44,916 bases of DNA, taken from positions 24,768 to 69,683 of the forward strand of contig JAGMZX010000011.1 of assembly GCA_018005585.1 (NCBI GenBank). Reading direction: 5' to 3'. Every line of letters starts with the position of its first letter. Within the stretch, counting starts at the first letter, position 1. This document shows, one piece after another, positions 1 through 17,840 of this stretch. Source of the stretch: Candidatus Hydrogenedentota bacterium. Its GTDB lineage: Bacteria > Hydrogenedentota > Hydrogenedentia > Hydrogenedentales > JAGMZX01. Position numbers and translations under genes: made by a program. The notes under the pieces were generated by a model that saw only the letters and a program-made list of their open reading frames with translations, made no database searches and was not told where the DNA came from.

Positions 1-2796
1 CCACATTTCCGAGTGCGAGTTGCTCACCGTCATCAGCGCCGCCAGCACGTGCGCGTAATCCTGCACCAGCGCATACCGCCCATCATTCATCAGGCGCTGC
101 AAATTGCCCGTGTATTTCTTGCGCGCGCCCATGTAGTGCGCGAAATCGGCGTCGCAAAGTACGTCCGCGATCAGCGCCGCCTCCCAACTGTCGGTCATGC
201 CGTTCTCATCGAGGTCCGTTTCCGCCCAGCCGCCCAGCGCCGCGTACAGTGCCGTCCCTTCCGCGTCTATCGTCTCAAGCACCGGGCACGCCGCCGGTTC
301 CTCGCCGTTGTTCTGTTCCTCGCTGTCGCAACCGCCGCCGTTCGTCGTCACGCCGGGGTTGAGCGCGTTTGCGGCAAACGTCACGTAGCCCGCCAGGTCG
401 CGCGACACCGGGGTAAATTCCGACAGGTTGCACACGCCGTCATCGTCGGCGTCGCCGCGTGACCCGAGCACGGGTTCCGCGGCCAGGTTGAAAAGGCTGG
501 CGTCAACGTCGATGCCGTATTCCGAAAACAGGGCAATCATGGCCGCGATGCTCGCCGGTTCGCCGATCGTAACGAGGCCGGTCAGTGCGCGCTCGACCTT
601 ATCCGTATCCACCAGCACATCGATGATCTGGTCTACGGGCACGCCGTACTCGTCGGACAGAGCGTCCCACAACTGGTCGAGATAGGCCTTGACGACAACC
701 TCGTTCTGCAAGTAGGCGACCGCGGCTGCCTCGAAGTGCGGCGTGTCCGCGCAAAAGAGCAGCGCGTCCTCGAGCAGTGCGTGCGCGTAATCCACGATGC
801 CGTTCCGGTCGAGGTCCGCCGTCATCGGGTCCTCGCAGATCAGGCAGACCGGATCGACAAACGGAATCTCAATCTGATGCCGGTAGACGTAGTCGAGCGC
901 GCCCGCGAAGTCCTTGCGCAGCCCCTCGGGGCACGCCGCGTGCAACACGGCATACACGTAATCCGCGCGCGTGCCGAAGAGGCTGAGAATCAGGTCGTAT
1001 TCCTGCTTGTTCGTCTGCCCATCCGCGTCGATGTCCGAATTGGCCGCGAACGGCTCGATCCACGAACCGAAAACGTTCACCGTGAACGGAATGTAAGGCA
1101 GCGTGAGCGCGTCGCCCAGGCCATCGCGCACTTTCGTGTTCATGGGGCCGCTCAGAAGGAGCAGCGTCGCCACGGCATCCTCGACGGGCCGCAGTAAGGC
1201 ATCGTAGTAGAGTTCGCTGCGCAGCCCCGCTACCGTCGTGTTGTAAGCATCCTGGAGTTGCGCGTGCAGGGGATACGCCGGGTCGCACAGCACCTCGGAA
1301 AGCGCCGCCGCTTCCCAACTGTCGGCCATGCCGTTTTCATCGAAATCGCCCAGTTCCCAGAACATGCTCAGATAGGGATAGAGCGCGGCGCCCTGCGCGT
1401 CCAGCTTCGCCAAGTGGTCGCAGGGCTCCTCTGGCTCCGGCGCGCCCGCGCCGATGGTGTAGCGCTCGCCCGTGGTGAAGTTGTCGATCCCTGTGCCGCC
1501 GAGCGGCATCCAGACGCCGTCGTAGATGGTGTTGTTATCCATCAGGTCGATGCTGAGCAGGCCGTCGCCCGTGGGCACGGCAACGGTCACGGTACGCGCG
1601 CTGCCGCTGCCGCTCACGCTCTGGATGGCTGCGCCGCTGAGACTGCCCGCAAGGTCCAGCGCGAAGTCGGCGACATCAACGCCGATCACGCCTTCGCTGA
1701 ACGTGACGGTGAAATCGGCCGTAGCGCCCGTGGGCGGATTCGCGGCGCCCGGCGCGCGCGTGATGCTCGTCACCGTCGGCGGCGTCGAATCGGCCAGCCA
1801 GTCGAAATAGACCTGGGCTACCGCGTTTTCCATCAAGTGGATGTAACCGTTGTCGCTCAGGTGGATGGGGTCGACGTCGTTTGTGCCCGCCATGGCCTCG
1901 CGGGGGCTGAACCGGTTGCTCATGCCGCCCGGGAAATCGGCGTAGCCGTTTCCGGGCCCGTCGGGGAAGTAGGCCGCGCTGGGCGGGAGGTATAGGCTCG
2001 GTATGCCGTACCAGCCCTGCATCACGCCGAAGTTGTGAACGTACGCGACGCGCTCCGTGGCGAGCGCGAAGTCTTTCTTGCGCCGTTCGAGTTCGATGAA
2101 GACGTTGTTGACCTTGACCTGATTCTGCTCGACCTGTTGCGGCGTGGTCCAGCCCAACCATGGAAAATCCGGGAGGAAAATCTGTACGTGGATGCCCCAC
2201 GCGGCGAGGAATATGGCGGTCGGGTCTTCGATGGCGGAAACGTAGATAATGATTTCATAGGGGTTGTACGGGTTCTGCCATGTGCCCCACTCGTATCCTT
2301 CCGCGATATTTGTGTAATCGTAGCCGCAGACCGCGACGCGGATATTGGGCCGCACGCTCAGGCAGTGATTGACGACGTTGCGGATGTGGTTCATCGTGGA
2401 GCCGACCAGCGCGTCGATGTGCCCGTCGCTGAAATCCCCCGCCACGCCCACATTGAGGTCATTGCCGCCCAGGCTCAGATGCACGATGTCGATGGTCGGG
2501 TACTGGTTGAGCTTCTGCGTGATGGCGTTCAGGACGTCCGGCGTGTCCCAATCGGCCGCCGTCGCCCGGAGAAGCGCCAATTCGCCGTTCTCTTCGTAGT
2601 TGCCGAGCCCCACTTGCTGCAGGACGTGGCGCAGCGCCTTCGGTTCCTGGTTCCACGGCGCGTAGGTCCAGCTATCGCCCACATACAGAATGCGAGGAAT
2701 GGCCGCTTCCGCCGTGCCCGCTGCCACCAAGACCGCAATCCCCGCCAGCAGGCAGAACCGCCCGGACATCCTTGAATCACGCATGATAGCGGCCAT
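1..2796 (-). CDS. Secreted multi-modular SGNH/GDSL hydrolase with calcium-motif repeats (3' end outside window)
   Basis: The frame is open from an ATG at 2796 to the window edge (932 codons, no stop), so the C-terminus is missing. The start follows GGGAG on the minus strand. A signal peptide covers about residues 10-31. SGNH motifs are visible: GDSW at 40-43 (Ser42 nucleophile), GGND at 110-113 and DPIH at 309-312 (Asp309/His312). A bacterial Ig-like segment follows (about 330-440). The remainder holds aspartate/asparagine loops of the dockerin or thrombospondin-3 kind (DFDENG, DIDADG, DLDRNG, DADDDG, DLDENG). A module beginning with Cys and containing DENGM-x-DSWEAA occurs twice, about 1.1 kb apart. 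Likely an exported esterase or carbohydrate deacetylase; the substrate cannot be told. It diverges from the GH2 gene. Confidence 0.85.
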   Translation of the reverse strand, partial: MAAIMRDSRMSGRFCLLAGIAVLVAAGTAEAAIPRILYVGDSWTYAPWNQEPKALRHVLQQVGLGNYEENGELALLRATAADWDTPDVLNAITQKLNQYPTIDIVHLSLGGNDLNVGVAGDFSDGHIDALVGSTMNHIRNVVNHCLSVRPNIRVAVCGYDYTNIAEGYEWGTWQNPYNPYEIIIYVSAIEDPTAIFLAAWGIHVQIFLPDFPWLGWTTPQQVEQNQVKVNNVFIELERRKKDFALATERVAYVHNFGVMQGWYGIPSLYLPPSAAYFPDGPGNGYADFPGGMSNRFSPREAMAGTNDVDPIHLSDNGYIHLMENAVAQVYFDWLADSTPPTVTSITRAPGAANPPTGATADFTVTFSEGVIGVDVADFALDLAGSLSGAAIQSVSGSGSARTVTVAVPTGDGLLSIDLMDNNTIYDGVWMPLGGTGIDNFTTGERYTIGAGAPEPEEPCDHLAKLDAQGAALYPYLSMFWELGDFDENGMADSWEAAALSEVLCDPAYPLHAQLQDAYNTTVAGLRSELYYDALLRPVEDAVATLLLLSGPMNTKVRDGLGDALTLPYIPFTVNVFGSWIEPFAANSDIDADGQTNKQEYDLILSLFGTRADYVYAVLHAACPEGLRKDFAGALDYVYRHQIEIPFVDPVCLICEDPMTADLDRNGIVDYAHALLEDALLFCADTPHFEAAAVAYLQNEVVVKAYLDQLWDALSDEYGVPVDQIIDVLVDTDKVERALTGLVTIGEPASIAAMIALFSEYGIDVDASLFNLAAEPVLGSRGDADDDGVCNLSEFTPVSRDLAGYVTFAANALNPGVTTNGGGCDSEEQNNGEEPAACPVLETIDAEGTALYAALGGWAETDLDENGMTDSWEAALIADVLCDADFAHYMGARKKYTGNLQRLMNDGRYALVQDYAHVLAALMTVSNSHSEMW

Positions 2797-2852
2797 GACA
2801 ACACACTCCCAGCACCTATGTAAGGACAATGTATGAAACCTGCTCACTGGGG

Positions 2853-3126: not shown

Positions 3127-5406
3127 ATGAGGCCTGTTGTGTGCGTGGTCATTGGAACGCTTGCTTGCGGCGCGCTCTGCGCAGTCTCGAATGCTGAGGA
3201 AATGCCGCGCCCCGAGCACCCCCGCCCGGATTGTGAACGGGCGGAATGGCTGACCTTGAACGGCGTATGGGAGTTCGGCGAGACCGATGCCGATGAAACG
3301 GAACGTTTCCTTGGCGCGGACGCGTACCCCGACCGGATTGTTGTGCCGTTCTGCCGCGAAAGCGCATTGTCCGGCCTGCAACGGAAAGGATTTGTGAAGA
3401 ACGTGTGGTACCGGCGCACGTTCCGCGTGCCGGCGGAATGGCGGTCGTCGCGGATTCGGCTGCATGTGGGCGCGTGCGACTGGCGGTCACGGGTATGGGT
3501 GAACGGTCAAGTCGCGGGGGAACACGTGGGGGGAAATACGCCGTTTGCCTTCGATATCACGAAACTTGTGGACCGCGGCGGTGAAAACACGGTCGTCATT
3601 CATGCGTTCGACGACACGGCTAGCGGCCTGCAGCCGCTGGGCAAACAATCGATAACGGGGGAGAGTCATGGCATTTTCTACACGCCGACGACGGGCATCT
3701 GGCAGACAGTCTGGCTCGAAGGTACGGGTGACACGTACATCCGTGAATTCCGGGTCGAGACCGGGCCTGACATGCAGCAGGCCCTCCTGGAAGTGGACCT
3801 CGACGGTCCCGCGCAAGGTTTGACGATTGAGGCGCAGGTTGAAGACGATGCGGCCGCTGTCGCCACGGCCCGGACTGCGGCCGTCTGGCGGGATAACCGG
3901 CTCGTGTTATCGATTGCGTCGCCGCGGCAATGGACGCCGCGCGACCCGCATCTTTACGGGTTGACGCTGCGTCTGCTGCGTGACGGCGAGGTCGTCGACG
4001 AAGTGCGAAGCTACCTGGGCATCCGCCGGATTACCATCGAGGGCGCGGCGGTCCTTGTCAACGGGGAAGCCATATTCCAGCGGCTCGTGCTGGACCAGGG
4101 CTTCTACCCGGACGGGGTTTGGACCGCGCCGACGGACGAAGCGCTGAAACGGGACATCGAGTTGTCGATGGCGGCGGGGTTCAACGGCGCGCGCCTGCAC
4201 CAGAAGGTATTCGAGCCGCGGCTGCTCTATTGGGCGGACCGCCTGGGCTACTTGCTCTGGGGCGAATACCCGAGCTTCGGCGCGAACTACGCCAACCCCG
4301 CCGTGAACGCGCCCATTCTTCAGGAATGGGTCGAGGTTGTGGTGCGGGACCGGAATCATCCGTCGGTCATCGGGTGGTGCCCGTTCAATGAAACCGACCC
4401 CATCTCGGGCACGCTGCAATCGGCGGTGGTGACGATGACGCGGCGACTTGACCCGTCTCGCCCGATCATCGAGAGCAGCGGCTACGCCCACACAATCGCC
4501 GACCCCGAGGTGCTTGACGTTCACGATTATGACCAGAACCCTGAGACGTTCCGGGCGCGCTGGGTGGACGGCTATGCGGCGCAATTCGACATGGGGCTGC
4601 CCGCTCGCTACGGGTCGGCGACGCCGTCGCGCGTGCCGTTCATGATCAGCGAGTATGGCGGGATTGGCTGGGCGCTCAGCAAAGAGGCCTGGGGTTACGG
4701 CAACACGCCGGAGAGCCTGGACGCCTACTACGCGCGGTTCGCAGGTCTCGCGGCGGCGGCGCTGGACAGCCGGTACCTCTTCGGCCTGTGCTACACGCAA
4801 CTGACCAACGTCGAGCAAGAGCAGAACGGGGTCTACATGTACGACCGAAGCCCCAAGTTTGACGTGGCGCCGCTACGGGAGGCCCTGCAACGGAAGGCGG
4901 CCTACGAAGCGGACCCGCCGCTGGCCGTGCGCCCGGCCAGCTATGTCTGGACAGTGCTCGTCGGCGCTCTGGCGGACGGCGACCTCGCCCGGCCCTGGCG
5001 GTACACGACGGATGCGCCCGGGGACGGCTGGCGGCAACCGGGTTTCGACGACGGCAAGTGGAACACCGGCCTGGCGCCGTTCGGCCATAAGGAAGGGGAG
5101 TGGATGGGCCGCATCCGCACGAAGTGGCAAAGCGATGACATCTGGCTGCGGCAGCGGTTCGCGTTCGACGGCGCGGCCTTTGATAGCGCCGCGCTGGTGC
5201 TCCATTTTGACAACGCGACCGAAGTCTTCTTGAACGGGCAACCCATCTGGCAACGAGACCATTGGAACGACCGCTACGACGGGTATGACGTGACGGGCGC
5301 ATTCCGCGGCGCCGTGGTGACCGGCGAAAACACGGTCGCCGCGCACACGCATCAAGATAGCGGCGGCCAGTACATCGACCTGGCGCTGCTTGTGGGCCGG
5401 CCCTGA
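3127..5406 (+). CDS. Secreted glycoside hydrolase family 2 protein
   Basis: 759 residues. The start is supported by GAGGAGG about 10 bases upstream and by a signal peptide (residues 1-24, ending at SNAEE). The order is typical GH2: an N-terminal jelly-roll sugar-binding domain (about 35-195, with WYRRTF and WVNGQVAGEHVGGNTPF), an Ig-like domain (about 200-310), then a TIM barrel. The acid/base is Glu422 in PFNETD and the nucleophile is Glu509 in MISEYGG. An additional jelly-roll domain fills about 625-759 (DDGKWNTG, VFLNG, HNTVAAHTHQ-like pattern). GH2 covers beta-galactosidase, beta-glucuronidase, beta-mannosidase and others, and the substrate cannot be set from sequence alone. No transporter or regulator is adjacent. 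Confidence 0.9.
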   Translation: MRPVVCVVIGTLACGALCAVSNAEEMPRPEHPRPDCERAEWLTLNGVWEFGETDADETERFLGADAYPDRIVVPFCRESALSGLQRKGFVKNVWYRRTFRVPAEWRSSRIRLHVGACDWRSRVWVNGQVAGEHVGGNTPFAFDITKLVDRGGENTVVIHAFDDTASGLQPLGKQSITGESHGIFYTPTTGIWQTVWLEGTGDTYIREFRVETGPDMQQALLEVDLDGPAQGLTIEAQVEDDAAAVATARTAAVWRDNRLVLSIASPRQWTPRDPHLYGLTLRLLRDGEVVDEVRSYLGIRRITIEGAAVLVNGEAIFQRLVLDQGFYPDGVWTAPTDEALKRDIELSMAAGFNGARLHQKVFEPRLLYWADRLGYLLWGEYPSFGANYANPAVNAPILQEWVEVVVRDRNHPSVIGWCPFNETDPISGTLQSAVVTMTRRLDPSRPIIESSGYAHTIADPEVLDVHDYDQNPETFRARWVDGYAAQFDMGLPARYGSATPSRVPFMISEYGGIGWALSKEAWGYGNTPESLDAYYARFAGLAAAALDSRYLFGLCYTQLTNVEQEQNGVYMYDRSPKFDVAPLREALQRKAAYEADPPLAVRPASYVWTVLVGALADGDLARPWRYTTDAPGDGWRQPGFDDGKWNTGLAPFGHKEGEWMGRIRTKWQSDDIWLRQRFAFDGAAFDSAALVLHFDNATEVFLNGQPIWQRDHWNDRYDGYDVTGAFRGAVVTGENTVAAHTHQDSGGQYIDLALLVGRP

Positions 5407-5438: not shown

Positions 5439-6356
5439 CTACTGCGGGGAAGGCGGCGTGGCCGCGGCGTCTGACCAGATGATCACGGAGCCCTTTGCCT
5501 CTGCCTTTGCTTGCGTGAGAGCGGCTTCGGCGCGCTCAAGCAAGGGCTCCAACGCCGTGCCGTGCGCGGGCACGCTTACGATGCCGCTCGAGAAGGTCAC
5601 GCGGATGCCCGCGATACCGTCCCCTACGACCGACAGCCGTTCTTCGATACGCTGCGTCAGACGGCTTGCCCCGTTCTCGTCCGTTTCGGGCAGGTAGAGC
5701 AGGAAGCGCTGCCCCGACAATCGGCCCGCAATATCCACGCTCCGCATGCGCGTCAGGATTACCCCGGCGAGGCAGGTCAACAGCAGGTCGCCCATCTCGA
5801 ACCCGTGCCCGGTGTTGACCGCCGAGAAATCGTCCAGGTCCAGAAGCAAAAGGCTGCCAAAACGGGCATACCGCTCCACCCGCTTCAATTCCTCGCCGAT
5901 TTCATGGAAGAGCGTGGGCCGGTTCAGCAGGCGTGTGAGAGGGTCGACACGCGCCATGCGCAGGTAACTCTCGCGCCGCTCAATAACGGCCTGCACCCGC
6001 GCCACCAGCACCACCGGGTCGAAAGGCGTTTCGATACAGTCGTCGACACCGCTGCGCAGTGCGCGCACCTGTTCGTCCGGCTGGTCTTCGGGCACCAGGA
6101 AAAGGAACGGGATATCGCGCGTCTCGGGATTCAGGATGAGACGCTCGCGGATGCCCGAGCCGTCCACGTCCGCGGAATCGTGACGGCAAATGACCAGATG
6201 CACCGCGCATTCCTTCAGCCGCTTTGCCGCCTCCCACCCGTTGACCGCCGTTCGCACCGTGAAACCCGCGCGGCCCAGGTAGTCCCGAATTACGTTGCGC
6301 GTGCTTGTATCCTGTTCGATGGCCAGGATGGTTGCGCCGTTCGCCGGTGCGGTCAT
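5439..6356 (-). CDS. Degenerate receiver + degenerate GGDEF protein, candidate c-di-GMP effector
   Basis: 305 residues from the ATG at 6356, which has GGAGG just upstream. The frame stays open to 6542, but that stretch is Lys/Pro-rich low complexity from a G/T-rich repeat and is probably not translated. Residues 8-125 align to a receiver domain, yet the phospho-acceptor Asp is Arg58 (VICRHDSADVDG) and the conserved Lys is Thr110 (IETPF). Residues 138-295 are a GGDEF domain (DPLTRLLNR, DLDDF), but the signature is SGQRF (214-218). The inhibitory-site motif RxxD is intact as RSVD (205-208), exactly five residues before the signature. This combination is known from Caulobacter PopA, which binds c-di-GMP without making it. 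Cyclase activity is unlikely; binding is inferred. Confidence 0.85.
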   Translation of the reverse strand: MTAPANGATILAIEQDTSTRNVIRDYLGRAGFTVRTAVNGWEAAKRLKECAVHLVICRHDSADVDGSGIRERLILNPETRDIPFLFLVPEDQPDEQVRALRSGVDDCIETPFDPVVLVARVQAVIERRESYLRMARVDPLTRLLNRPTLFHEIGEELKRVERYARFGSLLLLDLDDFSAVNTGHGFEMGDLLLTCLAGVILTRMRSVDIAGRLSGQRFLLYLPETDENGASRLTQRIEERLSVVGDGIAGIRVTFSSGIVSVPAHGTALEPLLERAEAALTQAKAEAKGSVIIWSDAAATPPSPQ

Positions 6357-6399
6357 GGCTCCTCCCGCTTTGCGCGTGTTTCCCCGCGCGCCCGCGTGC

Positions 6400-6405
6400 A
6401 GTATA
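6400..6405 (-). promoter_or_regulatory. Candidate -10 for the receiver-GGDEF gene
   Basis: AGTATACT is palindromic, so TATACT can be read on either strand (minus 6400-6405, plus 6402-6407). On the minus strand it lies about 45 bases before the ATG at 6356, with a weak TTTACC 18 bases upstream. This placement supports the shorter start for the gene. Confidence 0.4.
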
Positions 6406-6457
6406 CTCACGGGCGTCTCGACGGGTAAAGGGCGGGAACAGGGAAGTCCCTTTGGCG

Positions 6458-6475
6458 GTTTGGGTTGTTTGGGTT
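6458..6475 (+). repeat. Tandem GTTTGGGTT repeat in a G/T-rich tract
   Basis: Two head-to-tail copies of GTTTGGGTT inside a longer T/G-rich stretch (about 6451-6486) that contains four or more GG/GGG runs. It lies in the divergent region ahead of the ECF sigma gene. It may be simple sequence, a weak G-quadruplex or a regulatory element; nothing here decides which. Confidence 0.5.
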
Positions 6476-6562
6476 TTCTTGGTTTGCGCGCGGCAAAGTC
6501 GCGGGGAAATGTAAACCTTTTACAGATGCGGCACGTTTTCACGAATGAAGCAGGAAGGACAG

Positions 6563-8468: not shown

Positions 8469-8534
8469 AAGTTGCGGCTGAACGGCCCAACGGGCCGCGC
8501 GGCCGGATTACGCACCGCGCAGAGGAACCACGGC

Positions 8535-10289
8535 GTGCCCGACCTGAAATCGTTTGAGCGATTCCTCGTGTCCAGCGGCGTCGTCGCGGAAGACCGTCTC
8601 GAACGCGCGCGGGGCGAGGCGCGCAAGCGGGGTGCTACGCTGACCGAGGTGGTCCAGCAACTAGGCTTTGCCACAGCTGAGCAGGTGTATCAGGCGCTCG
8701 CTTCCTTTTGCGAACTGCGGTACGTTGTCCCGTCGAAGATGACCATTCCGGAAGAGGTATCGCGAAAAGTACCCGCCCGGTTTGCGACCCACTACGGCTT
8801 TGTACCCATTGCGGAGAGCAATGGCGCGCTCGTCGTTGCCGTAAGCGACCCGCTGAACGCGCAGCTGCTCGATGATATCCGGCTCGTCTTGAAGCGGCGC
8901 ATCGAAGCGACGGTGGCAACGCCCGAGGAGATCGACCGCACGACGAAGGTGCTCTACGGCGTCGGCGCGGACACGATGGAGAAGATCCTCATCAGCGAGG
9001 AATCGCAGGGGCTCGTCGTCAATCTGGGCGAAACCAGCATGAGCGCGGACCTCGGCGACGAGAACATCGATGCGTCCATCATCAAGTTCACGAACGAACT
9101 CATCCTCGAGGCCATTAATTCCGATTGCACCGACATTCACATCGAGCCGTTTGAAGACCAGTTGCGCGTCCGGTTCCGCATCGACGGCATCCTGCATCAG
9201 GTGCCTACGCCGCCGTCCATTCGCGGCTTTCACGCGGCCATTGTCTCGCGCATCAAGATCATGGCCAACCTCAACATCGCGGAAAAACGCCTCCCGCAGG
9301 ACGGCAAGATACTCGCCCGGTTCGGCGACAGCCAATACGACCTGCGCGTGTCGATCCTGCCGACGCCACACGGGGAGACGGTAAACATCCGCATTCTGAG
9401 CCGGGCGTCGATGTTCCTGACGCTGGACCAATTGGGCTTCCTGCCCGAGGACTTGACGAAGTTCGAGTCCTTTATCACGAAACCGCACGGGATTATCCTC
9501 GTGACAGGCCCCACGGGCAGCGGCAAAACGACGACGCTATACGCGGCGCTGAGCAAACTGAACAACCTGGACCGCAAAATCATCACGATTGAAGACCCCA
9601 TCGAATATCAGTTGCGCGGAGTGACCCAGATGCAGGTGTTGCCGCGTATCGGCTTCGATTTCGGCATGGGCCTGCGCTCCATGCTGCGTCACGACCCCGA
9701 TATCATGCTCGTGGGCGAAATCCGCGACTATGAGACGGCTGAGATGGCGATCCGGTCGAGCCTGACGGGCCACCTGGTGCTCAGCACGCTGCACACGAAC
9801 GACGCGGCCGGGGCCGTGACCCGCCTCACTGACATGGAGGTTGAGCCGTTCCTGATCGCGAGCACGATGATTGCCTCGATGGCGCAGCGTCTTGTGCGGC
9901 GCGTGTGCCGCAATTGCAGCGCGCCCTGCGCGCCGAACCCGCAGGTGCTGCGCGAGGAATTCGGCGTTACACCCGAGCAGGTGCAGCGCGGCCAGTTCGT
10001 GAAAGGCGAGGGCTGCGACGCATGCCGGCACACGGGTTACCGCGGGCGTATCGCCATCTACGAGATGTTGCCGTTTACCAATGAAATCAAGGAGCTTACC
10101 GCGCGCCGGAGTTCATCGATCGAGGTCAAGCGCAAGGCGCTGGAACAGGGCATGAAGACGCTGCGCATGTCCGGGTGGCGCCGTGTTTACGAAGGCTTGA
10201 GCACCATCGAAGAGGTGTTGCGCGTGACGGCAGACGCGGAGACGATGGGCGCGATCATCGAGACGGGCGATGCCGCAATTCCAGTATGA
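8535..10289 (+). CDS. gspE: Type II secretion / type IV pilus assembly ATPase (GspE/PilB family)
   Basis: 584 residues from GTG at 8535, chosen for AGAGGAA eight bases upstream. The frame is open back to a TTG at 8472, next to a -10-like TATAAT. The N-terminal MshEN-type domain spans about 10-150. The ATPase core carries Walker A GPTGSGKTT (about 325), an Asp box before it (DIHIEPFEDQLRVRFRIDG), Walker B LVGEIRD and the His box STLHTND. A zinc-binding tetracysteine follows: CRNCSAPC, then CDAC. This hexameric ATPase powers pseudopilus or pilus growth on the cytoplasmic face of the inner membrane. The following pseudopilins and secretin favour the T2SS name. gspF starts 20 bases before the stop. 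Confidence 0.95.
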   Translation: MPDLKSFERFLVSSGVVAEDRLERARGEARKRGATLTEVVQQLGFATAEQVYQALASFCELRYVVPSKMTIPEEVSRKVPARFATHYGFVPIAESNGALVVAVSDPLNAQLLDDIRLVLKRRIEATVATPEEIDRTTKVLYGVGADTMEKILISEESQGLVVNLGETSMSADLGDENIDASIIKFTNELILEAINSDCTDIHIEPFEDQLRVRFRIDGILHQVPTPPSIRGFHAAIVSRIKIMANLNIAEKRLPQDGKILARFGDSQYDLRVSILPTPHGETVNIRILSRASMFLTLDQLGFLPEDLTKFESFITKPHGIILVTGPTGSGKTTTLYAALSKLNNLDRKIITIEDPIEYQLRGVTQMQVLPRIGFDFGMGLRSMLRHDPDIMLVGEIRDYETAEMAIRSSLTGHLVLSTLHTNDAAGAVTRLTDMEVEPFLIASTMIASMAQRLVRRVCRNCSAPCAPNPQVLREEFGVTPEQVQRGQFVKGEGCDACRHTGYRGRIAIYEMLPFTNEIKELTARRSSSIEVKRKALEQGMKTLRMSGWRRVYEGLSTIEEVLRVTADAETMGAIIETGDAAIPV

Positions 10290-11484
10290 GGTCAAGAAGG
10301 GCCCGGGCGAATCCGCCACGGGCATACTCGAAGCGGAAAACCAGCGCGCCGCCGCGGCACGTCTCCGCGATATGGGGTATTTCCCTATTCGCGTCGTCGA
10401 GTACACGGGCGAGGAAGAAAAGAAGGACGTGCTCCGACAGGCGCTCGTCCGCATACGCCTGAGAGACCGCAATGTCTTCTTCCGCCAGCTGGCCAACCTC
10501 ATCGAGTCCGGCATGCCCATCACCCGCGCGCTCCGCACCCTGGTCGAGCAGGCGGAAAACCCGAAGATGTCGAAGCTCATCGATACGCTCCGCGACGACG
10601 TGCAGAAGGGCAGCAGTTTCGCCGAAGCGATGGAGAGACATCCGGAGGTCTTTTCCGCGGTGCAATGCAATCTGGTGCGCGCGGGCGAGACGGGCGGCAT
10701 GCTCGAGGAAGTACTCTGGCGCCTGGTTGCCTTCGGCGAACAACAGGAGGAACTGCGGGGCAAGGCGCTTAGCGCGCTGGTGTATCCGGCCTTCCTGCTG
10801 CTCATCGGCTCGATAGCGGTTTTCATTCTGATTTCTTTCGTATTTCCCCGGTTTATCGAGGTTTTCAAGGACTTCAACGCCGACCTGCCCATGCCCACGA
10901 AGATCGTCATGGCAGTCTGCGGGTTCATGGGTTCGTACTGGTGGGCCGTGCTGATCGGGGTGGGTCTGGTCATTGCCGGGCTCGTGTACTATCTGCGTAC
11001 GGAGGTGGGCCGCCGTCACAGGGATGCGTTGCTCTTGCGCATTCCAGTTGTCCGTACGGTAGTCCAGAAATACGAGATGGCCCGGTTTGCGCGGACGCTC
11101 GGAACCCTGCTCGAGAATGGCGTGCCGGTGCTGCGATCGCTGCGGACGACCGCCGACACGATGGGAAATGCGGTGATCCGCGACGAGGTTGCTTCTATCC
11201 TCGAGGGGGTGACCGACGGGCGGAGCATGAGCGAGAGCATGACGCAGACGCCGCATTTCCCGCCGCTGGTGGTCAGCATGTTCATGATAGGCGAGGAAAG
11301 CGGCCGCATCGGCGACGTGACCAAGCGGCTGGCGGATGCCTACGACCTGGAGGTGGACCGTGCGGTGAAGGCACTGACGGCCTTGTTTGAGCCGCTGTTG
11401 ATCGTGTTCATGGGCGCCATTATCGGTTTTCTCGTGATTGCCATGTTGTTGCCGATGTTGACGTTGAGCGCGAACGTCGGGTAG
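10270..11484 (+). CDS. gspF: Type II secretion inner-membrane platform protein (GspF/PilC family)
   Basis: 404 residues, starting inside the 3' end of gspE, so translation is probably coupled. The N-terminal extension is typical (QFQYEVKKG, IDT-like GILEAENQRAAAARLRDMGY). Two T2SSF domains follow (about 70-190 and 270-395), each with the family pattern FFRQLANLIESGMPITRAL and FARTLGTLLENGVPVLRSL. Membrane segments lie at about 170-195 (LLLIGSIAVFILISFVF), 215-240 and 370-400 (LLIVFMGAIIGFLVIAMLLPML). It forms the inner-membrane platform that couples GspE to the pseudopilus. Length and order match the family. Confidence 0.95.
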   Translation: MPQFQYEVKKGPGESATGILEAENQRAAAARLRDMGYFPIRVVEYTGEEEKKDVLRQALVRIRLRDRNVFFRQLANLIESGMPITRALRTLVEQAENPKMSKLIDTLRDDVQKGSSFAEAMERHPEVFSAVQCNLVRAGETGGMLEEVLWRLVAFGEQQEELRGKALSALVYPAFLLLIGSIAVFILISFVFPRFIEVFKDFNADLPMPTKIVMAVCGFMGSYWWAVLIGVGLVIAGLVYYLRTEVGRRHRDALLLRIPVVRTVVQKYEMARFARTLGTLLENGVPVLRSLRTTADTMGNAVIRDEVASILEGVTDGRSMSESMTQTPHFPPLVVSMFMIGEESGRIGDVTKRLADAYDLEVDRAVKALTALFEPLLIVFMGAIIGFLVIAMLLPMLTLSANVG

Positions 11485-11565
11485 GCGGCGTCCCCAAAAC
11501 GGGCCAGTTTGTCGTATTATAAAGGAGGGGAAGGCGAAGGCCTTTCCCTGCATCTGGAGGTTGCC

Positions 11566-11952
11566 ATGGATAACAGAGGTTTCACGCTTATCGAGCTGAT
11601 CCTGGTCGTGGTCATTATCGGTATCCTGGCCGGCGCGGTCGTGCCGATTTTCGGCGGACGTTCGACGGAAGCGCGGATCAACCGGGCCCGGTCGGACATC
11701 AGTTCCTATCTCGGGTTCATTTCCGCGTATGAGATCGACAATGGGAAATACCCGCAGCGTCTTGAAGACCTGGTCTCCGGGAATCGCAAGTACGTCCGCG
11801 AGTTGAACAATGACCCGTGGGGCAATCCGTACATTTACACGCCGCCTTCCGGCGCCACCAGTGATGACTTCGATGTTTTCTCCGCTGGTCCGGACGGCCA
11901 GCCGGGCACCGAGGACGATGTGACTCTCAACACGGAAGCGGCGACCCGCTGA
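11566..11952 (+). CDS. gspG: Major pseudopilin GspG
   Basis: 128 residues from the ATG at 11566 (GGAGG five bases upstream); an in-frame upstream start at 11509 would bury the prepilin leader. The leader MDNRG precedes the cleavage point G|FTLIEL, with Glu at +5 and a hydrophobic stalk (ILVVVIIGILAGAVVPIF). The C-terminal part is classic GspG: INRARSDISSY, GKYPQRLEDL, NDPWGNPYIY and the acidic calcium-site tail SAGPDGQPGTEDDV. It is the main subunit of the periplasmic pseudopilus and must be cleaved by a prepilin peptidase, which is not in this window. An AT-rich TATTATAAAG at 11515 may give it an extra promoter. Confidence 0.95.
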   Translation: MDNRGFTLIELILVVVIIGILAGAVVPIFGGRSTEARINRARSDISSYLGFISAYEIDNGKYPQRLEDLVSGNRKYVRELNNDPWGNPYIYTPPSGATSDDFDVFSAGPDGQPGTEDDVTLNTEAATR

Positions 11953-11963
11953 GCACCAAGAAC

Positions 11964-12521
11964 ATGACCGTCACGTTCCGAAACGTCCCCAAACCGCAGG
12001 CTGGGGGCGCGCCGGCGGGGAATGGGTTCACGCTGCTCGAACTCGTGGTGGTGTTGGCGTTGATTGCCATTCTCACCGGCATGGTCGTGCCGGTCTACGG
12101 CGGTTCAATGGCTTCCATGCGCATGCGCAGCGCGCAGAGCGATTTTATCTCTCTGATTGAATTTGTGCAGGAGCGCGCCATAACCGATGCCCGGGAGTAC
12201 CGCCTGTACATTGACAAGGAGGAAAACACGTTCTGGGTCATGTACATGACGGGTGTGGAGGAAGGCGAAAAGGTGTTCACGGAAGAAACGCGCGAATATG
12301 GGCGTCTGCGCGAGTTTCCCGAACAACTGACCGTCGACCGCGTGAAGGCGCGGAAAGACCGGGAACGGAGCGCTTACTTCATTGCCTGTTATCCGAACGG
12401 GGCATGTGATATCGCGCGGGTCGACCTGCTTGACGCGCGAAACCGGCGCCAGCGCACCACGATAGAAACCACCGGCGTCGTCGGCAAGCTCGAGGTCGAG
12501 ACGCCGCAGACGCGGAGGTAG
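11964..12521 (+). CDS. gspH: Minor pseudopilin, GspH-like
   Basis: 185 residues. The prepilin signal is intact: a long leader of 21 residues ends in NG, then FTLLELVVVLALIAILTGMVVPVY with Glu at +5. The rest (MRMRSAQSDFISLIEFVQERAI, then beta-rich sequence with YRLYIDKEENTFWVMY) fits GspH/FimT minor pseudopilins. There is no strong ribosome site before the ATG at 11964; it lies 11 bases after gspG, so re-initiation is possible. Position between gspG and gspI supports the GspH name, which otherwise rests on general features. Confidence 0.85.
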   Translation: MTVTFRNVPKPQAGGAPAGNGFTLLELVVVLALIAILTGMVVPVYGGSMASMRMRSAQSDFISLIEFVQERAITDAREYRLYIDKEENTFWVMYMTGVEEGEKVFTEETREYGRLREFPEQLTVDRVKARKDRERSAYFIACYPNGACDIARVDLLDARNRRQRTTIETTGVVGKLEVETPQTRR

Positions 12522-12527
12522 CGCACC

Positions 12528-13001
12528 GTGCCGCGCCGCGCCGGGTATATCCTCTTCGAGACTGTCGTGGCCATGGGTCTGTTGAGCATCAGCCTGGTGG
12601 TCGTATACAACGGCATGAATCAGGGGCTCTTCATGCGCGCCCGGGCCCAGGACTTCACCACGGCCAAGTTTCTGCTTGAGAAAGTCATCGCGGAGAAGGA
12701 ATTGCAGTTGGAGATGCAGCCCGGCTCGGGCGAGGGGCAGTTCGAGGGCGACAACGAGCGATTCCGCTGCCGCTGGGAGATCACAAAGGTGCCCGTGCCG
12801 GCGCCGCCGCTGCCGCCCGCCCTGACCGAAGAAGAACGGGAACGGTTCTATAAAATGTTCAAGAAATACATGGGCCGCATTGCGGTGACGGTCCTGTGGT
12901 CCCGCCGCGGCTTTGATTACGAGATTGCGGGCGAGACCCTGATTCCACCGGAGCGTCTCTGGCTGCCGGAAGGCGAACGCGATGATGTCCAGATGCCGTA
13001 A
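12528..13001 (+). CDS. gspI: Minor pseudopilin, GspI-like
   Basis: 157 residues from GTG at 12528, with GGAGG ten bases upstream. The short leader PRRAG precedes YILFETVVAMGLLSISLVVVY; Tyr at +1 replaces the usual Phe/Met, while Glu at +5 is kept. Residues 30-60 are helical (AKFLLEKVIAEKELQLE), and a Pro-rich segment follows near 90. GspI usually initiates the pseudopilus tip with GspJ and GspK. Its 3' end overlaps gspJ by 20 bases. Divergent in its C-terminal half; the assignment leans on locus order. Confidence 0.82.
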   Translation: MPRRAGYILFETVVAMGLLSISLVVVYNGMNQGLFMRARAQDFTTAKFLLEKVIAEKELQLEMQPGSGEGQFEGDNERFRCRWEITKVPVPAPPLPPALTEEERERFYKMFKKYMGRIAVTVLWSRRGFDYEIAGETLIPPERLWLPEGERDDVQMP

Positions 13002-13713
13002 GGACAACGGCTTCACACTGGCCGAACTGCTTGTCGCGGCGACGCTGCTCAGCCTCGTCATGGCTTCCGTGTATACGCTCTTCAGCTCGACCATGCGCAC
13101 CTGGCGGCGTTCCGAGGGCGCCTTTGACATGCACCAGGTTGCGCGCACGGCCCTCGCGGTCTTCGAGCGTGAAGTAGAGAATCTGATGGATGAGGCGGGC
13201 TACCTGTTCACCGGCGAGGATGATGAAGTGACGATGTTCGTGGTGGCGGAACCGATGGACGTCGAGGAGGCCGAAGGCCCGCACCTGATGCGTGTGCGCT
13301 ATCGATTTGACCGCACCGGCGAAGAACTGGTCCGGGAGGAAGCCCTGGTCGAGATGGCGCTGCCGAACCGCCCGCCGGACGGCAAACCGGTCGAACCGGG
13401 CAAAATCAAGCTGAAGCGCAAACGCGAGTTTGTCATTGCGACGCATGTGCGCGACTTCGAACTGAGATACTACTGGATCCCCGCGCCGGACCAGCGCTAT
13501 GAAAACGAACCGCCCCAGCCCACGGAGCATTTGGTTGTCGACAGCCACGAGGAGGGCTGGGGGCTGCCGCAGGCCATCGAAGCTCGCCTGACGCTGACCG
13601 ACCCCGAGAATCCGGACCGCGAGATATCCTTTGACGTCTTGCGCACGCTGCACACGCGCACGTTTTATTATCCGCTTCGCGATCTCGAGAAGATGCTGGG
13701 GGATTTGATATGA
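12982..13713 (+). CDS. gspJ: Minor pseudopilin, GspJ-like
   Basis: 243 residues. The leader MMSRCRKDNG is followed by FTLAELLVAATLLSLVMASVYTLF with Glu at +5. The downstream pattern (AFDMHQVARTALAVFEREVENL) matches GspJ, whose stalk runs into a beta-rich head; FELRYYWIP and a late IEARLTLTDPEN segment fit this. It starts inside gspI and its stop overlaps the gspK start as ATGA. It is expected to join GspI and GspK in the tip complex. Confidence 0.88.
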   Translation: MMSRCRKDNGFTLAELLVAATLLSLVMASVYTLFSSTMRTWRRSEGAFDMHQVARTALAVFEREVENLMDEAGYLFTGEDDEVTMFVVAEPMDVEEAEGPHLMRVRYRFDRTGEELVREEALVEMALPNRPPDGKPVEPGKIKLKRKREFVIATHVRDFELRYYWIPAPDQRYENEPPQPTEHLVVDSHEEGWGLPQAIEARLTLTDPENPDREISFDVLRTLHTRTFYYPLRDLEKMLGDLI

Positions 13714-14648
13714 CGAGGCGGGAAGACGGATTCGTGCTGCTGGTCGTGCTGTGGGTGTTGGCCGTGCTTACGGTCGTGACGGTGGGCTTCGGGCGGCGCT
13801 CGCTGATGGACCAGCGCGCCGCGGCCTATGCGCTCGACCAGACGCAGGCCATGCTGATGGCCCGCGGCGCCGTGTACCGGGGGATCCTGCTCCTGCGCAA
13901 CAAGGCGGTCACGGACATGGCGGAGATGGACCACCCGCCGGTGACGCACCTGGGCCAGGAATGGGCCAAGCCTATGGACCTGTTCTCCGAAGGCATATTC
14001 GAGGGCAAGGAAGGCGTCGAAGGCGACACGTGCGCGTTTGTCATTGAGGACGAACAGGCCAAGATGAATCTGAACAGCATTCCCTTCGAGGTGCTGGAGG
14101 AGGTGGAAGCGCTGGACCGCTCCGTGCTGCGGCGAATCAAGGCGCGGCGCACCGAGGGCGAACAGGATGGCGAGGGCCCGGCGCCGTTTCACGCACCGGA
14201 GGAGTTGCGCTACATGCGCGGCGTTGATTATGAAGAGTGGTACGGCGACCGCAAAGAAACGGGCCTGCGCAACCTGTTTACCACGGTGGGCACCGAACGG
14301 GTTAATATCAACACGGCGCGCCGCGAGGTGCTCGAGTGCATCCCGGACTGTGATGATCAGGCGATCAACGCCGTGTTAGGCTATCGCGCCGGACCCGACG
14401 GAGAGGTTGGCACGCAAGACGACGTGGGATTCCTGGACTGGAACGATTTTGTCGAGCGTACGGGCATTTCGGGGGAATCCCTGACTGCCCTGAAACGGTA
14501 CGGCGACTTGTATTCCACGTATTACACGGTTACCGGCATCGCGACGAAACGAAATGGCCAGGTGCGGGCAAGCGTGACGGCTACCGTAGTGGTCATGGAA
14601 GGACAGGCCAGCATTCTGGATTGGCGGGAGAGGCCCCTTGGCGCGTAA
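13710..14648 (+). CDS. gspK: Pseudopilus tip protein GspK
   Basis: 312 residues. The prepilin-like start REDG|FVLLVVLWVLAVLTVV lacks Glu at +5, which is the hallmark of GspK and lets it cap the pseudopilus. The body has the GspK pattern: AYALDQTQAMLMARGAVYRG, an acidic region (FVIEDEQAKMNLNSI) and a helix-hairpin-helix-like INTARREVLECIPDCDD. The C-terminus (YSTYYTVTGIATKRNGQVRASVTATV) is also typical. It overlaps gspJ by four bases and gspL by eleven. Confidence 0.93.
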   Translation: MTRREDGFVLLVVLWVLAVLTVVTVGFGRRSLMDQRAAAYALDQTQAMLMARGAVYRGILLLRNKAVTDMAEMDHPPVTHLGQEWAKPMDLFSEGIFEGKEGVEGDTCAFVIEDEQAKMNLNSIPFEVLEEVEALDRSVLRRIKARRTEGEQDGEGPAPFHAPEELRYMRGVDYEEWYGDRKETGLRNLFTTVGTERVNINTARREVLECIPDCDDQAINAVLGYRAGPDGEVGTQDDVGFLDWNDFVERTGISGESLTALKRYGDLYSTYYTVTGIATKRNGQVRASVTATVVVMEGQASILDWRERPLGA

Positions 14649-16134
14649 CAGTAATCACATCAGTATTGTCCAGTGCGACGAGCGGTTGATCTCGCGCATG
14701 CGCGTGCTGTCGAAGCCGGGCAAGCTCGAGATTCTCGCCTTTGACCAGGAACACGGCGCGTGGTCGGCGCAGGATGGCACGCTCGAGGCTGCGTTGCGCG
14801 ATTTTTCGGGCCGGTTCCACCTGGCGGATGATGCCGTCGTCACGATCCTGCCGCGTCACGATATCACGACCCGCATTCTGGTGCTGCCCAGCGACAAGCC
14901 GGAAGAAATAGCGAGCATGATCCGGTTCAGCGCGGAAGAATACGTTCCCTATACCGCTGAAGAACTCATGCTCAGCCAATGCGTGCTTCGTCTGCTGCCC
15001 ACGGGCGAAGCGCGCGTGCTGGCCGCGTTTGCGCACAGGGACGTGGTGGAAGGGCACATGCGTCTGCTCGCCGGAGCGGGCATCGTGCCCGAGCATGTGT
15101 ACTTGAGCACGGCATGCCTCGCCACGGCCGTGGCAGAGGCCAGGCCGGACGCTTCGGGCGATTTCGCGCTGGTAAACCTGGCCTCCGGCGGGCTGGAAGC
15201 GCTCACGTTTGACCGGGACGGGCATTTGATGTTTGGCCGCGGCGTCGCGTCCGGTCAGCAATGGCATGCGCCCGATGGCGAAGTGGCGGGTATCTTCGAG
15301 GAACTGAGCGTGGAACTGCGGGCGACCTTGTCCGCGTACCGCCGGGAAGCGCCAGATAGCTACGAGGTCGAGCGTGTTTATCTGGCCGCCGATGCGGCGT
15401 TCGTCGAGACGCTGGCCCAAGGGTTGGAGACGGAGACGGCGGTTCAATGCCGGCCTGCGGATTTTCTTCCTGCTCTTGTCGGCAGCGGTGCCCAACATCT
15501 TGCTGCTCCTGCATTGTCGGCGCTGGGCGCCGCGCTGCTCGCGCAGGGCCGGGGCGAGGTGCTTATCGACCTCGTTCCGGAATCCGTGAAGGAAGACCAG
15601 CGCATTCGCGTGGTGAAGCGTCAGGCGCTTAAGGCGGGTTTCCTTGCCACGCTGGTTCTCGTGGCGGTTGGGCTGTGGTTCTATCAGCAGGTGCGTCAGC
15701 GGGAGGCGTACCGCGTCGAGCTCGAGACGCGCCTGCAAGGTCTCGCGGCGCGCGCGGGCGGCGTCGTGGAGAAGCGCGAGCAACTGCGGATCATCCGTCG
15801 CGAAGTGCGGCCTTCCGGTTCCGTGCTCCAATACCTGGCGAACGTTTGCCGCGCCGCGCCGGACGGAGGACTGAACCTTACCGAGTTCCGTTTTGACCAC
15901 GAGGATGGGATCGAGGTCAAGGGGCGAGCGGAGTCGCTGGACCTGATCAACGGGTTTGGCCAGTCGTTGCGCGAACTCGGGAAGACGACGGGATTGGAGC
16001 AGTTTCTCGGTGCGACGCGCATGTACGAAAACGACAATATCCCGGAACAGGACAAGCGGATTTGGGAGTACCATTACACCATTCCGTTCGAGGAGAAAGA
16101 GGCTGAGAATGCAGATGCTTCGCTCGGCAAGTGA
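14638..16134 (+). CDS. gspL: GspL/PilM-like cytoplasmic actin-fold protein with membrane anchor
   Basis: 498 residues from TTG at 14638, with GGGAGAGG just upstream and within the end of gspK. Residues 1-300 resemble the actin-like cytoplasmic domain of GspL/PilM (VLPSDKPEEIASMIRFSAEEYVPY, FALVNLASGGLEALTF). One membrane span lies at about 335-352 (GFLATLVLVAVGLWFYQQ), then a coiled segment and a ferredoxin-like periplasmic domain (about 390-480). It should dock GspE to the membrane and pair with the next protein. The gene is more PilM-PilN-like than enterobacterial GspL. The last 26 bases overlap gspM. Confidence 0.85.
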   Translation: MARNSNHISIVQCDERLISRMRVLSKPGKLEILAFDQEHGAWSAQDGTLEAALRDFSGRFHLADDAVVTILPRHDITTRILVLPSDKPEEIASMIRFSAEEYVPYTAEELMLSQCVLRLLPTGEARVLAAFAHRDVVEGHMRLLAGAGIVPEHVYLSTACLATAVAEARPDASGDFALVNLASGGLEALTFDRDGHLMFGRGVASGQQWHAPDGEVAGIFEELSVELRATLSAYRREAPDSYEVERVYLAADAAFVETLAQGLETETAVQCRPADFLPALVGSGAQHLAAPALSALGAALLAQGRGEVLIDLVPESVKEDQRIRVVKRQALKAGFLATLVLVAVGLWFYQQVRQREAYRVELETRLQGLAARAGGVVEKREQLRIIRREVRPSGSVLQYLANVCRAAPDGGLNLTEFRFDHEDGIEVKGRAESLDLINGFGQSLRELGKTTGLEQFLGATRMYENDNIPEQDKRIWEYHYTIPFEEKEAENADASLGK

Positions 16135-17140
16135 TCTCTGGCGCAAGCTTTCGCCGCGGGAACAAAGGTTGGCTGGTCTCGTGTTCGCGCTGGCCGTTGC
16201 GCTTCTTGCCGCGGTTGGACTGCGCCGCGGCTGGGATCGCATCGAGGAATTGGACAGCTCGATTATGCTGCTTGAGGACGCGATAGTGGAGAATACCCAC
16301 CAGGTCGCGCGCCGCGAGGCCGTCGAGGCGGAATATCGCGAGGTTTCCGCGCAGCATTCGAGTGCATGGTCGGCCGCGGAGATCCTGGACCGCCTGCGCA
16401 ACGAAATTTACCGGCTCGCGCACAACGTGCCATCGCCGTTGAATGCGGAAGGCGTTGCTGACCGCGTCGAAAACGATTCCGGACTCCTGGTCAATCTGCC
16501 GGAATTGGGGGAGGGCACGCTGGAAGAGAGCGAGGAAGGCTTTCGCGAATACCACATTGGCGTTAAGGTGTCCAACGTGCCTTTGCACGCATTGATCAGC
16601 TACCTCGAGCGCCTCCAGGCCAGCCCACAGTCCCTGCGCATCGATGGCCTCAACATGAAGCGCAACTTCCTGGACGACCGGGTTACGGCGGATATCGATA
16701 TCACGCGGATTATTGTGGACCGGACCGAACCGCCCTGGACCTATGCCGCGCAGCAGCCGGAAGGCTGGGTCAGCAAGGGCTGCCGCATCGCCGCGGCCTC
16801 CCTGCCCGCCTTGGGCGGCAAGCCAGCCGTGCAGGTGTCGTCGGGAGGGCCGCGGGGCGCGTGCTATTTCCCTGTGGAACTGCAGGGCGGCGCCTACGAA
16901 CTGCAGTTCGAGGCGTCTGCGAAAGGCGCCGTCATCTTACGCATTTACGACGAGGACGCGGGCAAGAACCTCGAAGGCGAACTTACATTGAACGGAGACG
17001 GCGTCCCCTATATCTACCGGATTCAATTCGCCCTGCCCGACCAGGGCGGACTGACGAAAATGCGAGTGCCGCACCTGACGCTTGAGGAAGCGGACAGTGA
17101 AGTGCTCGTCAGCAGTGTGGCATACCGCAGGATGACATGA
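16109..17140 (+). CDS. gspM: GspM/PilO-like protein with additional C-terminal beta-rich domain
   Basis: 343 residues from ATG at 16109, chosen for AGAGG seven bases upstream; the frame is open to 15956 but runs inside gspL. The N-terminus has GspM form: SDLWRKLSPREQRLAGLVFALAVALLAAVGLRRG (one membrane span at about 22-40), then a coiled coil (45-80) and a ferredoxin-like domain to about 200 (LHALISYLERLQASPQSLRIDGLNM). Residues about 206-343 are extra: WTYAAQQPEGWVSKGCRIAAASLPALGG, then alternating beta strands ending LVSSVAYRRM. This looks like a carbohydrate-binding-module or galactose-binding-like sandwich. Standard GspM stops near 160-200 residues. The fold of the extra part is inference. 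Confidence 0.8.
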   Translation: MQMLRSASDLWRKLSPREQRLAGLVFALAVALLAAVGLRRGWDRIEELDSSIMLLEDAIVENTHQVARREAVEAEYREVSAQHSSAWSAAEILDRLRNEIYRLAHNVPSPLNAEGVADRVENDSGLLVNLPELGEGTLEESEEGFREYHIGVKVSNVPLHALISYLERLQASPQSLRIDGLNMKRNFLDDRVTADIDITRIIVDRTEPPWTYAAQQPEGWVSKGCRIAAASLPALGGKPAVQVSSGGPRGACYFPVELQGGAYELQFEASAKGAVILRIYDEDAGKNLEGELTLNGDGVPYIYRIQFALPDQGGLTKMRVPHLTLEEADSEVLVSSVAYRRMT

Positions 17141-17143
17141 GCT

Positions 17144-17638
17144 ATGGAACGGCTTAGCATGTATATTGGCATTGGCGTGTTGGTTGTGGCCGGCGCGCTC
17201 TTGGCGCTGGGGCTGGTTCATGATGTCAAGCAGGAAGACCGCGCCCTTCTCGAACAGCGGCTCGCGGCGGTGCCCAAGCACGCTGCTGCGGAGGAGACGA
17301 TGGACTGGCCTTGGGCGGAATGGGAGCAGAATATCACCGCGAATGCCAAACTATGGAGCGGTCTGGTGCCGCCCCCGCCCCCGCCTGCGCCGCCGCCGCC
17401 GCCGCCGCCCCAGCGGCCCGATATGGCCGCGATGCTCAAAGATGTGTATCCTACGCGGCGTGGCGTAGGCAATAAGGTGCGCATCGTTACCCCTCAGAAC
17501 CCGCGAGGGGATTACTACAGCGTCGGCGATGCGATAAACGGTTGCACCATCGAGCGCGTGGAAAAGACGGAGGTCGTGTTTACGCTGGTCTGGCCCGCCA
17601 AGAATGAGGTACTCACGTACTCTCTGCCGCGACAGTAA
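17144..17638 (+). CDS. gspC: GspC/PilP-like inner-membrane clamp protein
   Basis: 164 residues. An N-terminal membrane span (about 6-25, MYIGIGVLVVAGALLALGLV) is followed by a helical stretch, a Pro-rich linker of about 18 prolines (76-92) and a small beta domain (about 110-160: GDYYSVGDAINGCTIERVEKTEVVFTL). This order is that of GspC, whose HR domain contacts the secretin N0 domain; the GD-x-I-x-G-x-x-I-x-x-V pattern is also that of PilP. No PDZ domain is present. It follows gspM by three bases and precedes gspD. Functional name rests on architecture and position. Confidence 0.8.
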   Translation: MERLSMYIGIGVLVVAGALLALGLVHDVKQEDRALLEQRLAAVPKHAAAEETMDWPWAEWEQNITANAKLWSGLVPPPPPPAPPPPPPPQRPDMAAMLKDVYPTRRGVGNKVRIVTPQNPRGDYYSVGDAINGCTIERVEKTEVVFTLVWPAKNEVLTYSLPRQ

Positions 17639-17727
17639 GGGCGCCGCGCCTGTCAGCCGTGGGTTGACCGCTCGCGTTGAGCAATGAGACAGACGGGCAA
17701 GCGGGGCCGGAAGGAGACGTGTGCGCC

Positions 17728-17838
17728 ATGAACTGCGCTGTGGGAAAGGACTGTTTCGAACCCGCGTGCTTGTGTGGCGCGGGTCGTGTGCGCTATATAA
17801 TGTGGTGTAGCAAGCCAAGACCACACGAAGTGGGGTGA
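17728..17838 (+). CDS. Possible 36-residue cysteine-rich peptide ahead of gspD
   Basis: Open frame ATG-TGA of 36 codons with AAGGAG eleven bases upstream and an end two bases before the gspD ATG. It contains five cysteines (3, 9, 14, 16, 27). It spans the candidate gspD -10 sequence, so either it is non-coding leader DNA or the promoter call is wrong. No homologue is recognised. Confidence 0.2.
   Translation: MNCAVGKDCFEPACLCGAGRVRYIMWCSKPRPHEVG
17796..17801 (+). promoter_or_regulatory. Candidate -10 element (TATAAT) for gspD
   Basis: Perfect TATAAT within GCTATATAATGTGG, 40 bases before the gspD ATG, in the only sizeable gap (202 bases) of the secretion locus. No good -35 is visible; TTGTGT at 17770 is 20 bases away. 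An own promoter would let the secretin be made separately from the inner-membrane genes. Confidence 0.45.
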
Positions 17839-17840
17839 CT

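Follow-up and report, generated by a model that had tools for sequence, protein, structure and literature searches.

A putative two-calcium spacer domain in surface proteins of Candidatus Hydrogenedentota

Short D-rich calcium loops are a feature of the bacterial TSP3 repeat (PF18884) of secreted bacterial proteins and are also present in the domain described here (hereafter "the unit"). The dockerin type I domain (PF00404), which is likewise extracellular, combines a calcium loop with a helix; at one locus (L051) it fills the C-terminal slot behind a unit, which is itself not matched by PF00404. The loops of the unit also resemble the EF-hand and Dx[DN]xDG calcium loops as treated by Rigden et al. 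(2011; PMC3123361). Each is 12 residues long with ligands at positions 1, 3, 5, 9, and 12, but unlike in those systems the unit holds two such EF-hand-type loops at a spacing of about 95 residues, with a helical insert between them. A term search of the text of PMC10866078 returned no match.

The unit was recognized at one edge of a 44,916-nucleotide stretch of a Candidatus Hydrogenedentota genome (the window), within the 5' part of a gene with the following features:

1..2847, minus strand: gene for a secreted multi-module protein, 5' part (ORF call; intact ortholog L053:4576-9906)
1804..2703, minus strand: SGNH hydrolase domain (GDSW, GGND, and D-x-I-H motifs)
1582..1791, minus strand: Ig-like stretch (Big_5/Big_12, sub-threshold)
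925..1422, minus strand: unit A1, 166 aa (modeled with confidence as a helical domain with two loops)
1312..1347, minus strand: predicted calcium loop 1 of unit A1, DFDENGMADSWE (loop pattern)
1000..1035, minus strand: predicted calcium loop 2 of unit A1, DIDADGQTNKQE (loop pattern)
328..846, minus strand: unit B1, 173 aa, homologous to A but diverged (A-B profile comparison)
781..816, minus strand: predicted calcium loop 1 of unit B1, DLDRNGIVDYAH (loop pattern)
418..453, minus strand: predicted calcium loop 2 of unit B1, DADDDGVCNLSE (loop pattern)
1..288, minus strand: unit A2, truncated by the window edge and a scaffold gap (repeat alignment)
181..216, minus strand: predicted calcium loop 1 of unit A2, DLDENGMTDSWE (loop pattern)

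The reading frame starts with a GTG at position 2847 and is free of stops down to window base 1 (949 codons), where it enters a 100-N scaffold gap. A preliminary description of this DNA had recognized the frame but began it at 2796, which is an internal ATG. Its expectation that the gene continues past the edge, perhaps with more copies of the repeat, was borne out on both counts. A partial C-type unit, units B2 and A3, and a C-terminal domain lie further along the same scaffold, in a part interrupted by two 100-N gaps, and an intact ortholog of 1,776 aa (L053:4576-9906, Candidatus Hydrogenedentota) carries six units and a duplicated C-terminal domain. This ortholog begins with a hydrophobic stretch (signal-like, by eye), followed by the SGNH domain, the Ig-like stretch, and units A1, B1, A2, and C; a GEGEGE linker, units B2 and A3, a second linker, and the C-terminal domain complete it. 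L053 was the best locus in a scan of named species genomes, and its unit A1 is 86% identical to that of the window gene. Matches to TrAA12, one of which exceeds the cut-off (in L053), track the GEGEGE linkers and were dismissed as low complexity. A paralog in the window's genome (L010:7585-11604) has no SGNH domain; it starts with units A, B, A, and C, a linker, another B unit, and a further linker, and ends with a P_proprotein domain, a linker, and the C-terminal domain as in the window gene. Two more SGNH paralogs (L010:11647-12711 and L011:5789-7048) are truncated at contig ends, and the repeats and GEGEGE linkers seem to be the cause of the assembly breaks at these genes.

With SGNH/GDSL hydrolases (PF13472) the window protein shares the GDS, GND, and DxxH blocks, in agreement with the earlier reading of the enzyme part as an SGNH-type hydrolase. 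The GDSW, GGND, and D-x-I-H motifs are invariant in all five aligned paralogs and orthologs (alignment A9), and the residues of the catalytic Ser, Asn, and Asp-x-x-His blocks (S11, N81, D278, and H281 of A9) are likewise unchanged in 5/5. The domain may be enzymatically active. It differs from described family members in that it scores below the cut-off of the Pfam model (Lipase_GDSL_2; 19.4 bits against 32.9) and, in the intact ortholog, is followed by six calcium-loop units. L028, from the window's genome, also remains below this cut-off (28.9 bits), and a sequence search of the PDB with the SGNH domain gave no convincing relative. Where an Ig-like domain had been placed behind the enzyme, residues 353-422 form an Ig-like stretch, whose Big_5 match (E=0.0048) is below the cut-off.

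Where at least five loops had been reported, the pattern D-x-D-x-[DN]-G occurs five times and no more, at residues 501, 605, 678, 799, and 878; in 20,000 shuffles of the protein such loops averaged 0.11 and never exceeded 3. The motif DENGM-x-DSWEAA, described as repeated about 1.1 kb apart, occurs at residues 501 and 878 (377 codons, or 1,131 bp), each copy being preceded by a Cys-led stretch. The repeat is, however, longer than first described, comprising 158 to about 194 aa and two loops per unit. The loops at 678 and 799 are part of B1, a diverged copy of the A unit, and the homology of types A and B was established by profile comparison (probability 97.5, E=5.1e-12).

For an assessment of conservation, 152 units were aligned and 57 kept after removal of those that were shorter than 110 aa, contained X, or shared 90% identity or more with one already retained. 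Across the whole unit, the eight most conserved positions are all calcium-ligand positions, a ranking with some bias toward loop-bearing copies because the profile used for gathering the 57 units contains the loops. Loop 2 carries D, D, N, and E at positions 3, 5, 9, and 12 in 57/57 units and begins with D in 54 of the 57. Loop 1 has D at position 1 in 47/47 aligned units and at position 3 in 45/50, N or D at position 5 in 51/57, and D at position 9 in 55/57. Its position 12 is less conserved (E in 39/57, H in 10), so site 1 may be the weaker one. Nine units of the window's genome have eight invariant residues, every one inside the two loops, and on the strength of these patterns both loops are predicted to bind calcium. 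Outside the loops the paralogs diverge widely; apart from the loop flanks (129 and 142), eight non-loop positions are at least 70% conserved, namely 22, 40, 45, 63, 87, 106, 159, and 162 of the reference unit.

The unit was detected in 45 of 68 genomes of the phylum (E<=1e-5), a count that includes the window's own genome and some genomes that contributed rows to the query alignment. A set of 386 genomes of relatives again gave 45 positive genomes, all of them the own genome or members of the same genus or order, and among the best nine candidates scored per genome the unit was absent from the approximately 318 genomes of this set outside the phylum. Among named species genomes it occurs at seven or more loci, six of Candidatus Hydrogenedentota/Hydrogenedentes and one of an "uncultured bacterium," and searches of plasmids and viral contigs revealed no relative. 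So far, the unit thus represents an unnamed domain family of Candidatus Hydrogenedentota that is present in many surface proteins and absent elsewhere in the genomes tested. The preliminary description had proposed a lineage-specific adhesion or assembly module; lineage specificity stands for the genomes tested, but adhesion or assembly by the unit itself is not supported. For this phylum, whose members have been seen almost exclusively in metagenomes, the unit is a domain that can be named and is ready for structural work.

The proteins that carry the unit are diverse. Units follow the SGNH domain in the window gene, L053, and L054, a metalloprotease-like domain and P_proprotein in L056 and L046, an SBBP propeller in L047, a TolB-like domain in L058, and a C-type lectin domain in L059. 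P_proprotein, the SBBP propeller, the C-type lectin, and a surface Ig-like domain are matched over the respective cut-offs; the SGNH, metalloprotease-like, and TolB-like assignments are below them. Two units at L050:1-2472 sit close to the end of an exceptionally long open frame, which in G011 spans 7,674 codons and by eye has PKD-like repeats. The C-termini of 21 distinct, closed unit-bearing frames consist of a membrane segment with a basic tail (12 frames), the C-terminal domain (6), or another ending (3), among the last the true Dockerin_1 of L051 (40.2 bits). This count excludes frames without a stop or with X near the end (including the window gene) as well as near-identical C-termini, and it draws on loci fetched by similarity; some of the six frames with the C-terminal domain came from searches for that very domain (L079 and L083), and L085 was added by a later search. 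From the unit end to the stop, the 12 membrane-tail frames have 35-43 residues in eight cases and 122-264 in four. Since the sole exosortase (PF09721) match is below the cut-off, we do not claim an exosortase partner for these tails.

As the units often have a functional domain on one side and an attachment-type end on the other, we consider it probable, with a fair margin for error, that the unit is a lineage-specific two-calcium structural spacer of surface-attached proteins. It would form a compact, mostly helical domain that has a calcium loop toward each end and, in the model, helices and a short hairpin in the middle. After export, extracellular calcium would occupy both loops and lock the unit as a rigid block, a calcium-dependent folding that we suppose by analogy with what is generally known of extracellular calcium modules. 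Blocks in rows could then serve as a stalk that keeps an enzyme or binding domain, here the SGNH hydrolase, off the attachment point. This point might be a membrane segment at the C-terminus, a dockerin, or the C-terminal domain peculiar to the phylum. The architecture thereby points to the likely holding place of the phylum's secreted enzymes. Instead of being a passive spacer, the unit might be a ligand-binding or adhesive module for a sugar, a mineral, or a partner protein. The occurrence of the unit in several kinds of secreted proteins, some with lectin or protease-like partners, and the strong divergence of paralogs outside the loops would suit such a role, but the eight conserved non-loop positions resemble, by eye, a core and not a binding site, and the closeness of the units to the tails is better explained by a spacer. 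Ligand binding or adhesion is an unlikely function, and that of a structural spacer the more likely one.

That the loops are ordinary TSP3, EF-hand, or dockerin repeats with nothing new in between appears improbable. Every loop fits the 12-residue EF-hand pattern, weak EF-hand sequence matches exist, and both TSP3_bac and Dockerin_1 are present elsewhere in the window's genome. The 25 genome places matched by TSP3_bac (a 22-position model) and the eight matched by Dockerin_1, all at E<=0.1, nevertheless never overlap a unit, which agrees with the initial impression of dockerin- or TSP3-like loops in different surroundings. A direct match to a named Pfam domain, the finding that would have spoken against novelty, did not emerge, as all Pfam and NCBIfam matches on the unit are below their cut-offs. 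When 11 units were scanned against Pfam, none exceeded a cut-off; there was one sub-threshold match to EF-hand_5 (E=0.62), and the other weak families appeared once each. A weak match to the pilus-like Amuc_1099 family, which could be taken in favor of a known repeat, recurs over loop 2 in four proteins, where its E-values of 0.014-0.11 and scores of 12-15 bits fall short of the 50-bit cut-off, and spore_YtaF matches unit B1 of L053 (E=0.0013, 18.2 bits against 149.6). A PDB search with the 11-unit profile (A4) ranked EF-hand proteins first, albeit weakly (calbindin, E=0.0042), with loop 1 aligned to calbindin and Eps15 loops and loop 2 to calmodulin loops; the best 60 of its 165 matches also include two "serine protease" entries.

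What further separates the unit from such repeats is its conserved length of about 160 aa with a confidently predicted fold of its own. AlphaFold predicted unit A1, aligned with 11 relatives and modeled as protein without calcium, to be helical, at high confidence (pLDDT 95.4, pTM 0.90), with helices at residues 3-18, 34-45, 53-68, 73-90, and 92-105, a hairpin at 115-122, and helices at 138-147 and 152-160. Across the 57 units the loops follow the 12-residue EF-hand pattern of oxygen ligands at positions 1, 3, 5, 9, and 12, nearly without exception in loop 2 and less strictly at position 12 of loop 1, but in the predicted A1 structure the loops are not directly flanked by a helix on both sides: helix 3-18 stops well before loop 1 (26-37), and loop 2 (130-141) is preceded by the hairpin and coil. 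Foldseek searches with this model gave best E-values of 2.0 against the PDB and 1.4 against a viral library, and VIA, limited to Foldseek's candidates, reached a best Z of 2.7 (rmsd 3.5 over 79 residues); no EF-hand chains were among the matches listed. In a two-unit model the B half was poorly predicted, and it swamped the fold search, which was uninformative. The A1 model is compatible with a new fold but no proof of one, and the combination of a confident prediction with no detectable PDB match makes the unit a good target for crystallography.

The C-terminal domain, which in several of these proteins follows the units, is about 100 aa long and contains two copies of a pattern consisting of D-x10 or D-x13, then E-L-L-R-[VL]-I-Q-[FL]-[YF]-N, and then E-D-G-[FY]. 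It has 78 matches in the window's genome (E<=1e-3), corresponding to fewer than 78 proteins because several matches are contig-end fragments. The domain was found in 41 of the 68 phylum genomes, with at least 73 matches each in G001, G021, and G015, and the 386-genome set likewise yielded 41, all from the own genome, the same genus, or the same order (twelve candidates scored per genome). Of 28 distinct closed frames, 26 have at most 10 residues between its end and the stop, the exceptions being L098 (777 residues after it) and one L103 frame (27 after). Pfam gave EF-hand matches on this domain that were all sub-threshold, Dockerin_1 overlaps one of the 78 places (C123:9128-9415; 16.2 bits, below the cut-off), and a search of viral contigs found no relative. 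The exact motif was not encountered in the part of the literature searched. The same genome has eight matches to the cohesin family, six of them over the cut-off. In 14 well-known control genomes, cohesin was matched in 2 (1 over the cut-off), TSP3_bac in 4 (2 over), Dockerin_1 in 5 (2 over), and exosortase in 1; single matches to these families are therefore not rare elsewhere. The places relevant here are:

L009:6706-7005, minus strand: C-terminal domain, duplicated, with the ELLR-IQ-YN pattern (one of 78 genome places)
L097:2066-2830, minus strand: cohesin-like protein ending in the C-terminal domain (cohesin match)
L097:324-977, minus strand: cohesin-like protein, hydrophobic basic tail by eye (cohesin match)
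L102:577-1761, plus strand: cohesin-like protein, hydrophobic basic tail by eye (cohesin match)
L098:532-3135, minus strand: C-terminal domain ahead of a sub-threshold cohesin match (Pfam)

Between the two cohesin-like frames of L097 lies an ORF (L097:984-2222) with a hydrophobic basic tail, again by eye, and no Pfam cohesin match. Cohesin matches and dockerin-reminiscent calcium loops might suggest that the unit itself docks to the cohesin-like domains of its genome, but this is most improbable, given that the Dockerin_1 matches do not overlap with units and that the C-terminus seems to be the place for docking, since units occur in runs of up to six and once before a true dockerin. The assembly-like element is the C-terminal domain beyond the window; dockerin-like in pattern and separate from the unit, it may be the better lead and merits a study in its own right. 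This domain and the cohesin-like proteins possibly constitute a cohesin-dockerin-like display system, although the true dockerins of the same genome could be the cohesins' real partners. A phylum-specific display, in which dozens of secreted proteins per genome dock via the C-terminal domain on cohesin-like proteins, some of them anchored by a C-terminal membrane segment, while stalks made of the two-calcium unit, with a new fold, keep the enzymes at a distance, is a doubtful proposition as a whole. The C-terminal domain makes it testable whether the phylum builds its own cohesin-dockerin-like surface system. For the unit, a two-calcium spacer remains our preferred reading.

Type II secretion or pilus genes (T2SSE, T2SSF, N_methyl, and secretin) are encoded near the SGNH gene (window positions 8472-20873). 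In G001, a member of the same genus, neither these genes nor the glycoside hydrolase family 2 gene were detected within 40 kb of surrounding sequence at the ortholog, and a functional link of the window gene to the secretion genes was dropped for this reason. In the window, a glycoside hydrolase family 2 gene (3127-5406, plus strand) is divergent from the SGNH gene, and a response regulator-GGDEF fusion is encoded at 5439-6542 (minus strand).
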